NCBI GenBank assembly: GCA_020436025.1
Contig: JAGQYP010000003.1
Location: forward strand, 62,001-126,000
Reading direction: 5' to 3'
Origin: Crocinitomicaceae bacterium
GTDB lineage: Bacteria > Bacteroidota > Bacteroidia > Flavobacteriales_D > Crocinitomicaceae
Length of the DNA stretch: 64,000 nucleotides
The translations under genes were made by a program, and so were the position numbers. Shown here piece by piece: positions 16,646 through 18,773 of this stretch. The notes beneath the pieces were generated by a model. It saw only the letters and a program-made list of their open reading frames with translations. It was not told the origin of the DNA and made no database searches. The stretch's first letter is position 1. Every line of letters starts with the position of its first letter.

Positions 16646-18007
16646 ATGAGAGTTCACTTTATTGCCATAGGAGGTGCAGCCATGCATAATTTAGCCATTG
16701 CCTTAAAGCGCAAAGGTGATCATGTAACTGGATCTGATGACGAAATTTTTGATCCGTCTAAATCAAGATTGCAGCGCGAAGAATTGCTTCCGGACCGAAT
16801 TGGATGGAATCCTGAGATCATCAATTCTGATCTAGATGCTATTATTTTGGGCATGCATGCCAGAGCAGACAACCCGGAATTGCTGAAAGCACAGGAACTT
16901 GGACTAAAAGTGTATTCTTACCCTGAATTTATTTATGAGCAAAGCCTAGAAAAGAAAAGAGTAGTTATTGGAGGTTCTCATGGAAAAACAACGATTACTT
17001 CAATGGTATTACATGTTCTGAATCAAACACAGTTAGAATATGATTACATGGTGGGTGCTCAATTAGAGGGATATGATTGCATGGTCAAACTATCAGATGC
17101 TCCAATCATTATTTTGGAAGGCGATGAATATTTGTCTTCTCCTATCGATCGTAGACCTAAATTTCACTTATATCATGCTCATATTGGTCTGATTAACGGA
17201 ATTGCTTGGGATCACATAAATGTTTTTCCTACCTATGAGAATTATGTAGATCAATTTCGAATTTTCATAGACTCAATCGAATCACAAGGGAGTTTGTTTT
17301 ACAATTCTACGGATGAAGAAGTAGTTAAAATTTGCACTGAAAGAGATTTACCAGGGCTTTCTAAAATAAAATCATATGGAATTCCGAAACACAATATAAT
17401 TAATGGTCGAACAATTGTAGAGACTGCAACTAAACAGTATGAACTCAATGTTTTTGGTCAACATAATCTTCAAAACATGGAGGGCGCAAAATTAATTTGC
17501 ATGGATCTCGGGGTTTCAGAAGATGATTTTTACACAAGCATGCAAACATTTTCAGGAGCATCAAAACGATTAGAATTGGTAAAAGAAACGGAAGAATCTG
17601 TTTTCTACAAAGACTTCGCGCATTCTCCTTCTAAGTTAAAGGCCACAACTAAAGCCTTAAAAGAACAATTTCCAGAAAGAACATTAATCGCTTGTATGGA
17701 ATTACACACTTTTTCCAGTTTGAAAACAGATTTTCTTCCCTTATATGAAAACTCCATGGCCGCAGCTGATAAAGCCTACATATTTTTTGATCCAAAAGTA
17801 ATTGAACACAAAAAATTAGAACCCATAGATTCGGATTTTGTTAAAAAATGCTTTAAAAGTGACAACGTAGAAGTATTTACCAGTTCCAATGATTTAATCG
17901 ATAAACTGAAAAATGAACAGTGGCATGAAAAAAATCTGCTCATGATGAGCTCTGGTAACTTTAATGGTGTTAAATTTGAAGAATTAGCAAAAGAGCTATT
18001 TAAATAA
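16646..18007 (+). CDS. mpl: UDP-MurNAc:L-Ala-gamma-D-Glu-meso-DAP ligase Mpl
   Basis: Mpl is a peptidoglycan recycling enzyme that joins the murein tripeptide to UDP-MurNAc. The 453-residue length is normal. The N-terminus (HFIAIGGAAMHNLAIALK) is the Rossmann domain that differs from MurC by GGAAMHN. The ATP site GGSHGKTT is at 109-116, EGDEYLSSPID at about 158-168, and the C-terminal domain holds KDFAHSPSKLKAT. In Bacteroidota this gene is often labelled peptidoglycan synthetase. The tRNA repeat block begins 10 bp after its stop. Confidence 0.93.
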   Translation: MRVHFIAIGGAAMHNLAIALKRKGDHVTGSDDEIFDPSKSRLQREELLPDRIGWNPEIINSDLDAIILGMHARADNPELLKAQELGLKVYSYPEFIYEQSLEKKRVVIGGSHGKTTITSMVLHVLNQTQLEYDYMVGAQLEGYDCMVKLSDAPIIILEGDEYLSSPIDRRPKFHLYHAHIGLINGIAWDHINVFPTYENYVDQFRIFIDSIESQGSLFYNSTDEEVVKICTERDLPGLSKIKSYGIPKHNIINGRTIVETATKQYELNVFGQHNLQNMEGAKLICMDLGVSEDDFYTSMQTFSGASKRLELVKETEESVFYKDFAHSPSKLKATTKALKEQFPERTLIACMELHTFSSLKTDFLPLYENSMAAADKAYIFFDPKVIEHKKLEPIDSDFVKKCFKSDNVEVFTSSNDLIDKLKNEQWHEKNLLMMSSGNFNGVKFEELAKELFK

Positions 18008-18017
18008 GATCATAAAT

Positions 18018-18219
18018 GGGGATGTAGCTTACCGATAGAAGATTTCTAACTCATTCTTCGAAGAAATCTAACATCGGCACGGGCAACTTCGCTATGAATT
18101 GTATGCAAAAACACAAATGGGGATGTAGCTTACCGATAGAAGATTTCTAACTCATTCTTCGAAGAAATCTAACATCGGCACGGGCAACTTCGCTATGAAT
18201 TGTATGCAAAAACACAAAT
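18018..18219 (+). repeat. Two identical 101-bp units carrying the 5' end of tRNA-Ala
   Basis: Units 18018-18118 and 18119-18219 are identical as read. Each begins with GGGGATGTAGCT, the first 12 nt of the tRNA-Ala gene that follows at 18220, and then continues into about 89 nt of unrelated sequence. That part holds an inverted repeat (CCGAT/ATCGG outside, AGATTTCT/AGAAATCT inside) with the palindrome TTCTTCGAAGAA near its loop. The tRNA itself starts where a third unit would start. Confidence 0.9.
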
Positions 18220-18293
18220 GGGGATGTAGCTCAGTTGGCTAGAGTGCTTGACTGGCAGTCAAGAGGTCGTGGGTTCGAATCCCATCTTCTCCA
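18220..18293 (+). tRNA. tRNA-Ala (anticodon GGC)
   Basis: The 74-nt sequence folds as a cloverleaf. The acceptor stem GGGGATG pairs with CTTCTCC, including the G3:U70 pair that marks alanine tRNAs and one U:U mismatch. The D arm is GCTCAGTTGGCTAGAGT. The anticodon stem is CTTGA/TCAAG with loop CTGGCAG, giving GGC. The T arm is GTGGG-TTCGAAT-CCCAT, and the discriminator is A. CCA is not encoded. A terminator follows at 18297. Confidence 0.95.
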
Positions 18294-18296
18294 CAG

Positions 18297-18325
18297 AAAG
18301 CAAGTTATAATGACTTGCTTTTTTT
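18297..18325 (+). terminator. Rho-independent terminator of tRNA-Ala
   Basis: Stem AAGCAAGT/ACTTGCTT of 8 bp with a 7-nt loop (TATAATG) and a T-run. It begins 3 nt after the tRNA discriminator. Confidence 0.9.
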
Positions 18326-18445
18326 ATTTCTAATATTTATGCGTTGTAGACATAAATGTACGCTTATCGTGGGTTCGAACCATGACGATATCTTTGATAT
18401 GTCTTGGTGCTGACCTTTTGCGTCAGCATCCCATCTTCTCCACAA

Positions 18446-18476
18446 AAAGCAAGTTATAATGACTTGCTTTTTTTTT
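18446..18476 (+). terminator. Second copy of the tRNA terminator
   Basis: Same AAGCAAGT/ACTTGCTT stem and TATAATG loop as after the tRNA, with a longer T-run, inside the second downstream unit. Confidence 0.8.
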
Positions 18477-18596
18477 ATTTCTAATTTTAATACGTTGTAT
18501 ACATAAATGAACGCTTATCGTGGGTTCGAACCATGACGATATCTTTGATATGTCACGGTGCTGACCTTTTGCGTCAGCATCCCATCTTCTCCACAG

Positions 18597-18625
18597 AAAG
18601 CAAGTTATAATGACTTGCTTTTTTT
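18597..18625 (+). terminator. Third copy of the tRNA terminator
   Basis: Same 8-bp stem, loop and T-run, in the third, truncated downstream unit. Confidence 0.8.
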
Positions 18626-18773
18626 ATTTCTAATATTTATACGTTGTATACATAAATCTTCGCTTATCGTGAGTTCGAACCATGACGATATCTTTGATGT
18701 GTCACAGTGCTGTCGGCTATTTCGCCCCATAATTTGGACTTCAAAATTTATATGATACGTTAAATTTTCAGCA

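Follow-up and report, generated by a model that had tools for sequence, protein, structure and literature searches.

Within the window, i.e. the whole 64,000-nt stretch of Crocinitomicaceae DNA analysed here, positions 18014–18712 hold an intact tRNA-Ala gene (anticodon GGC) between partial copies of both of its own ends. This block is probably a resident array of small stem-loop elements without a protein gene, lodged in and beside a working tRNA-Ala and of a kind mobilised by a nuclease. It would represent the protein-less form of a widespread, apparently undescribed group of Bacteroidota elements that combine a tiny GIY-YIG gene with stem-loops displacing the stem-loops of RNA genes; the open literature searched contained no description of such tRNA-linked hairpin/GIY-YIG elements.

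The anatomy of the block, all of whose features lie on the forward strand, is established by sequence comparison, confirming the coordinates and arrangement proposed in an initial annotation of this DNA, namely a tRNA-Ala flanked on both sides by tandem copies of its own ends. ARAGORN and Rfam (RF00005, 66.5 bits) identified exactly one intact tRNA (18220–18294), leaving the central copy as the only complete one, as had been claimed, and an Rfam scan of the block returned nothing but tRNA above the curated family scores. Two mutually identical units of 101 nt (18018–18118 and 18119–18219), spaced by exactly 101 nt, precede it. Each begins with tRNA nt 1–12 (18018–18029 and 18119–18130), a 12-mer (GGGGATGTAGCT) found at 18018, 18119 and 18220 only, the chance expectation being 0.008 copies for 64 kb and both strands. 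The initial annotation had recognised this 12-mer as the only tRNA part repeated upstream; the bulk of each upstream unit is formed by a structured stem-loop, here termed X (model matches at 18025–18090, with 69.5 bits, and at 18126–18191), followed by a spacer. The tRNA sequence passes directly into X, ...GCT being continued by TACCGAT...ATCGGCACGGGC....

Downstream, the tRNA terminator hairpin (AAAGCAAGTTATAATGACTTGCTTTTTTT; 18297–18327) is followed by three units of ~151 nt, two of them complete and the third breaking off near 18712. A complete unit comprises, in this order, tRNA nt 48–59 (the 5′ half of the T-arm), a double stem-loop termed Y (ACCATGAC..GTCTTGGT plus GCTGACCTTTTGCGTCAGC), tRNA nt 60–75 and the terminator, with Y inserted exactly at T-loop position 59/60 and zero tRNA bases lost. 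The T-arm half, Y, and the 3′ end with its terminator copy occupy 18367–18378, 18379–18427 and 18428–18476 in unit 1, and 18518–18529, 18530–18578 and 18579–18627 in unit 2; the truncated unit 3 (18667–18712) consists of a T-arm half with one change and a Y that is broken off, without a tRNA 3′ end. Across the block, the T-arm piece TCGTGGGTTCGA therefore recurs at 18267, 18367 and 18518 and, with one change, at 18667, the tRNA 3′ end ATCCCATCTTCTCCAC at 18279, 18428 and 18579, and the terminator hairpin, copied in every complete downstream unit, three times, at 18298, 18447 and 18598. The part that had been described as T-arm-like is genuine tRNA sequence, and the earlier view of the downstream units as this part plus the 3′ end and terminator holds for the two complete units, though not for the third.

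In agreement with the initial annotation, the block lacks protein-coding content: its units contain no ORF, no GIY-YIG ORF is present in the block, and no recognisable ORF remnant was found in the 151-nt units. A weak likeness to the start of the ORF at tRNA-His, noticed by eye in these units (13 of 18 nt), is not claimed as a GIY-YIG remnant. The neighbouring upstream gene, which ends at 18007, presumably encodes, judging by eye, murein peptide ligase (Mpl), and the large protein gene downstream, on the opposite strand, has a C-terminus that we take, again by eye, to be a type IX secretion sorting domain.

Similar arrays are present elsewhere in the same genome, with partial copies of their own ends near nine of the 28 distinct tRNA genes examined (a by-hand estimate from word length gives ~0.2 by chance) and GIY-YIG ORFs at the tRNA-His, -Asn, -fMet and -Pro loci. 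G001, the sole other sampled genome of the genus, carries two X units upstream of its tRNA-Ala that start with its own tRNA 5′ end (GGGGGTATAGCT) rather than with GGGGATGTAGCT. Since the flanks align on both sides (71–75%), the two tRNA-Ala loci are orthologous, whereas their downstream parts differ: in place of the ORF-less units of the window's genome, G001 has a 92-aa GIY-YIG ORF, behind which come a hairpin, the 3′ part of the tRNA starting at the T-loop, and a terminator. At tRNA-His (aligned flanks 74–77%) the situation is reversed: the window's genome carries an ORF cassette downstream and lacks 5′ units, and G001 carries two X units and lacks the cassette. These reciprocal differences imply that both kinds of array were gained or lost between close relatives; on comparison, relatives did not carry the block as intact, ordinary paralogous tRNA genes, an outcome that the initial annotation had considered. 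ORF-less units can arise through loss of the ORF, for which 95-nt units following tRNA-Ala in Mucilaginibacter straminoryzae (L105) provide direct evidence, as they retain the last GIY-YIG codons. Dispersal of remnants is likewise possible, given a solitary 3′ remnant of tRNA-Asn, carrying inverted X and a terminator, ~4 kb from the tRNA-Asn array (L240:1150–1310; G000 C133). ORF-less hairpin remnants were also seen in G000 on the 3′ side of elongator tRNA-Met, on both sides of tRNA-Cys and on the 5′ side of tRNA-Arg(ACG) (L252, L255, L265).

The initial annotation had proposed searching for the units in other genomes, and a covariance model of X matched 39 times, in 17 of the 150 genomes of the family, all of the matches inspected being located at a tRNA or tRNA remnant. 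In 5′ copies, X occupies the D-arm and reads forward; in 3′ copies, it occupies the T-arm and is inverted, its tRNA side ending in GCT at both sites. That both orientations occur speaks against a common RNA function and favours an element acting at the DNA level. Its ends are nearly invariant, as are most pairs of the outer stem, leaving little variation for a covariation test to score. Y, in turn, also occurs after tRNA-His, at the identical T-loop site. The small unknown element targeting D- and T-arms that had been suggested as one interpretation thus came close, in that the D-arm holds X, the T-loop holds Y and both stem-loops recur at other tRNAs; as a whole, however, that interpretation is only partly supported, having missed the phylum-wide group with its nuclease, the spread over tRNA genes of the same genome and the replacement rule described below.

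A profile built from seven GIY-YIG ORFs was run over 80 phylum-wide genomes and 60 family genomes. Among the 134 distinct high-scoring ORFs examined, 127 lay no more than 600 nt from a tRNA or remnant on the same strand, a proportion valid for this subfamily rather than for all GIY-YIG genes, as the profile was built on ORFs linked to tRNAs and the loci retrieved were mostly those with the best scores. An intact same-strand tRNA was near 96 of the 134 ORFs and an opposite-strand tRNA near none; among low-scoring GIY-YIG ORFs, the link was less frequent (6/12). The ORFs are placed between the intact tRNA and a truncated copy at two tight spacings, either starting mostly 40–70 nt after the tRNA, behind its terminator, or ending 0–16 nt before it, and the stop codon is often a TAG within the tRNA copy. 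ORF phylogeny groups by tRNA isotype across families (42 changes vs. 69.5 in shuffled data, 0/200), a clustering that simple vertical inheritance at orthologous tRNAs also fits.

Among the exceptions to the tRNA link, the RNase P RNA gene accounted for two ORFs, and a gene that, by eye, we take to be an IS91-type transposase for three. In the latter, found in three genomes (L163, L184, L187), the GIY-YIG ORF is bounded by terminal inverted repeats of 12–13 nt (CCCCGTTAGAAAT / ATTTCTAACGGGG). A further ORF lies 150 nt behind tmRNA (L091; G001 C271), which may be another host. One further locus has eight tandem GIY-YIG ORFs, each followed by a hairpin-bearing initiator-tRNA-Met remnant and a terminator (L191; G199 C34). 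A phage origin of the ORFs was considered and rejected: one query ORF had zero matches in 50,697 phage records, and viral contigs gave only four partial ones.

The encoded proteins are small (median 86 aa) and single-domain in all 124 ORFs, with no additional sequence-specific DNA-binding domain in this set. ORFs from related loci matched PF01541 (E 5.6e-14 and 1.7e-18), and the GIY-YIG catalytic core is conserved, Y6, Y17, G19, R27, H31 and E65 being invariant in their alignment (A1). An AlphaFold model (pLDDT 91.6) and profile search ranked UPF0213 proteins and Slx1 best, with the I-TevI catalytic domain further down. Slx1 is a nuclease for branched DNA, and, going by this predicted fold, a structure-selective nuclease would fit hairpins that retain their pairing while changing in sequence.

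The broken tRNA copies show what such hairpins replace. In place of the missing tRNA segment, remnants carry perfect hairpins, mostly TCC...GGA, of 14–26 nt (detection required a stem of at least six pairs, so that the pairing of the hairpins is itself no independent evidence). The replaced positions are common to members of an ORF clade, and the segment follows the clade, two Asp clades having two different segments. In Pro, Val, Gly, Lys and Leu it is the whole 17-nt anticodon arm; elsewhere it is nt 38–47 (initiator Met), nt 33–43 (Asn) or eight T-arm nucleotides (Asp and Gly). At least three complementary terminal pairs were present in 41 of 51 missing segments, or 37 of 47 after subtraction of four unreplaced native stems, where about 1.4 would be expected from equal-length segments taken anywhere in that tRNA. 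As whole anticodon arms are stems anyway, the 18 distinct other segments were counted separately, revealing at least three pairs in ten and at least two pairs in 15, e.g. ACC-CGAA-GGT (fMet), GCC-GAGT-GGC (Cys) and CGA-GT-TCG (Asp T-arm). Most of the 18 are not tRNA helices, and the rule therefore points to the DNA rather than to the RNA cloverleaf.

Hairpin arms were more alike within an isotype across genomes than between isotypes (0/2000 permutations, relatedness being uncontrolled). The TCCGTCAGCTGACGGA hairpin has five copies in the window's 3.6-Mb genome, all in fMet, elongator Met and Cys remnants; in G001 (L276, L281), it adjoins a 5S rRNA gene, apparently in a 5S rRNA remnant. The idea that remnant hairpins confer 'immunity' against the element's own nuclease, made attractive by the agreement between replaced segment and ORF clade, was discarded, the intact tRNA having an unchanged sequence. 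The replacement rule rests on the TCC...GGA hairpins, and the window's own X and Y are clean insertions, which we would assign to the group not by this rule but by what their sequences share with it in location, recurrence and orthology.

RNase P RNA offers the clearest individual case of replacement, outside tRNA genes. The congeneric genomes G186 and G200 share 95–98% identity over 978 and 404 nt on either side of the P3 helix. Where G186 has an ordinary short hairpin (TCAGTTATAGCAATATAGTTGGGA), G200 has TCCCCGCACATAACATTTAA...ORF...TTAAATGTTATGTGCGGGGGGA (L125 / L298), the unaligned part being 302 nt vs. 18 nt. As judged from this alignment, the native P3 hairpin of G200 is displaced by a hairpin with a GIY-YIG ORF in its loop. 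G211 (L138 / L296) contains an independent-looking P3 version with perfect 21-nt arms and, again, an ORF in the loop. The rnpB P3 stems of the congeneric G000 (L288, CATGCCGA..) and G001 (L290, CATACTGAC..) are unrelated to each other, perhaps as a result of another hairpin exchange.

As to the chemistry of mobilisation, we infer that the GIY-YIG nuclease would recognise stem-loops or tRNA arms in DNA that is probably single-stranded or branched, cut there and thereby open the DNA at extruded tRNA arms or hairpins. Repair could then copy in or exchange a stem-loop, with or without an ORF, and duplicate one of the two ends of the tRNA gene, while always regenerating an intact tRNA, so that the host survives. 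Recombination between copies would expand or shrink the arrays and might also remove the ORF. The ORF-less units of the window may be mobilised in trans by ORFs at other tRNA loci, or may be inert remnants. Counting against this scheme, the sequence recognised by the nuclease would persist in the intact tRNA beside the ORF. A bolder reading, which we put forward tentatively, is that the group constitutes a new class of mobile element moving by stem-loop exchange: free-standing DNA hairpins would displace hairpins native to structured-RNA genes, or short inverted repeats in them, autonomous members would encode, within the hairpin or next to it, a structure-selective GIY-YIG nuclease, and the broken tRNA copies flanking one intact tRNA would be landing arrays.

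Alternatively, the arrays might stem from passive decay, i.e. ordinary tandem tRNA duplications that later acquired unrelated palindromic repeats (REP-, MITE- or Rickettsia-palindrome-like), the GIY-YIG genes being hitch-hiking junk. This seems rather unlikely. In several related genomes, TCCCGA..TCGGGA palindromes do lie away from tRNAs (0–34 per genome vs. 0–6 for a control pattern), and some hairpin copies in G015 sit within other large palindromes; in the window's genome, however, tRNA remnants hold three of the four TCCCGA palindromes listed and all five TCCGTC palindromes. Passive decay is further opposed by the end-to-end displacement of inverted repeats by hairpins, the strand-specific and nearly universal association of the ORFs with tRNAs, and the RNase P P3 hairpin replaced by an ORF-bearing one. 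We give little credence to the partial units being kept as functional RNA, be it as decoys for toxins that cleave tRNAs or as a structured leader controlling tRNA maturation: a single RNA function fails to account for X being forward in the D-arm and inverted in the T-arm, and presence is patchy, both for X among the family genomes and between orthologous tRNA-His genes, even though the downstream unit folds far better than shuffled sequences (z −4.85) and, at several loci, a Bacteroidota-type promoter (TATATTTG), recognised by eye, precedes the 5′ units, with the tRNA behind them, and cotranscription is expected.

tRNA 3′ ends are classic att sites, and the downstream units do repeat the 3′ end. 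Nevertheless, a scar left by an integrase-driven element, together with a separate duplication upstream, is a very improbable origin for a block in which both tRNA ends are repeated, with at least three copies each, in units of about 100–150 nt; no integrase gene was found in or beside it, the G001 locus having a GIY-YIG ORF instead, and the initial annotation was right in denying integrases an explanatory role. An assembly artefact might be suspected in a draft genome of 192 contigs with two identical upstream units, but is hardly credible, because G001 has diverged copies of these units at the orthologous tRNA-Ala and diverged array versions exist in other genera as well.

For an array of nuclease-mobilised stem-loop elements, the closest known systems are phage SegB and rRNA intervening sequences. 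SegB, a free-standing GIY-YIG homing endonuclease of phages T6/T4, is encoded beside tRNA genes and reportedly cuts inside them at the motif RAWTSGAAC; the same work describes tandem amplification of tRNA plus segB and finds the 5′ end of the tRNA to share microhomology with the 3′ end of segB (PMC13096335). In our own reading, this motif is the complement of the T-loop sequence GTTCSAWTY. The Bacteroidota loci resemble SegB in having a GIY-YIG gene beside a tRNA and ORF ends that run into tRNA sequence, but they are chromosomal rather than phage-borne, encode a single domain of ~86 aa, and keep one intact tRNA while other copies are split by stem-loops, with hairpin replacement. SegB provides a measured precedent for the cutting of tRNA genes and the tandem amplification of tRNA and nuclease genes. 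Homing endonucleases move by cutting an empty cognate site; the clean empty/occupied pair at rnpB and the reciprocal presence at tRNA-His may reflect such movement. Intervening sequences of 23S rRNA, e.g. in Coxiella, are selfish stem-loops that occupy a helix of a structured RNA and in some cases enclose an ORF, S23 (PMC4990558). The RNase P P3 cases in G200 and G211, both outside the window, likewise place a stem-loop in a native helix with an ORF in the loop; unlike in intervening sequences, the ORF encodes GIY-YIG rather than S23, the hosts are tRNA remnants and RNase P RNA, and tandem arrays of tRNA ends are present.

Other likenesses exist. Ssn proteins of Neisseria are small single-domain GIY-YIG nucleases for single-stranded DNA that are paired with NTS repeats. 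They share with the Bacteroidota loci the combination of such a protein with short repeats, and the palindromes are alike in style, whereas Ssn is not known to be linked to tRNAs. The rtT repeats following tyrT in E. coli are tandem downstream units that each repeat the tRNA 3′ end, as in the window, although Rfam RtT gave no match in the block up to E = 1 and the block differs in repeating both tRNA ends, in having stem-loops in the D- and T-arms and in the nuclease of its relatives. Rickettsia palindromic elements are small palindromes inside RNA and protein genes; in contrast to these, the Bacteroidota hairpins take the place of inverted repeats within tRNA copies and are linked with a nuclease gene.

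If this interpretation is true, tRNA genes throughout the phylum host a common, overlooked selfish element that is unable to self-splice and spares one intact tRNA. The replacement of hairpin for hairpin suggests an unusual mobility reaction by a nuclease of very small size, whose substrate may be single-stranded or branched DNA. Such elements would also account for many of the odd partial tRNAs and small tRNA-adjacent GIY-YIG genes in Bacteroidota annotations.
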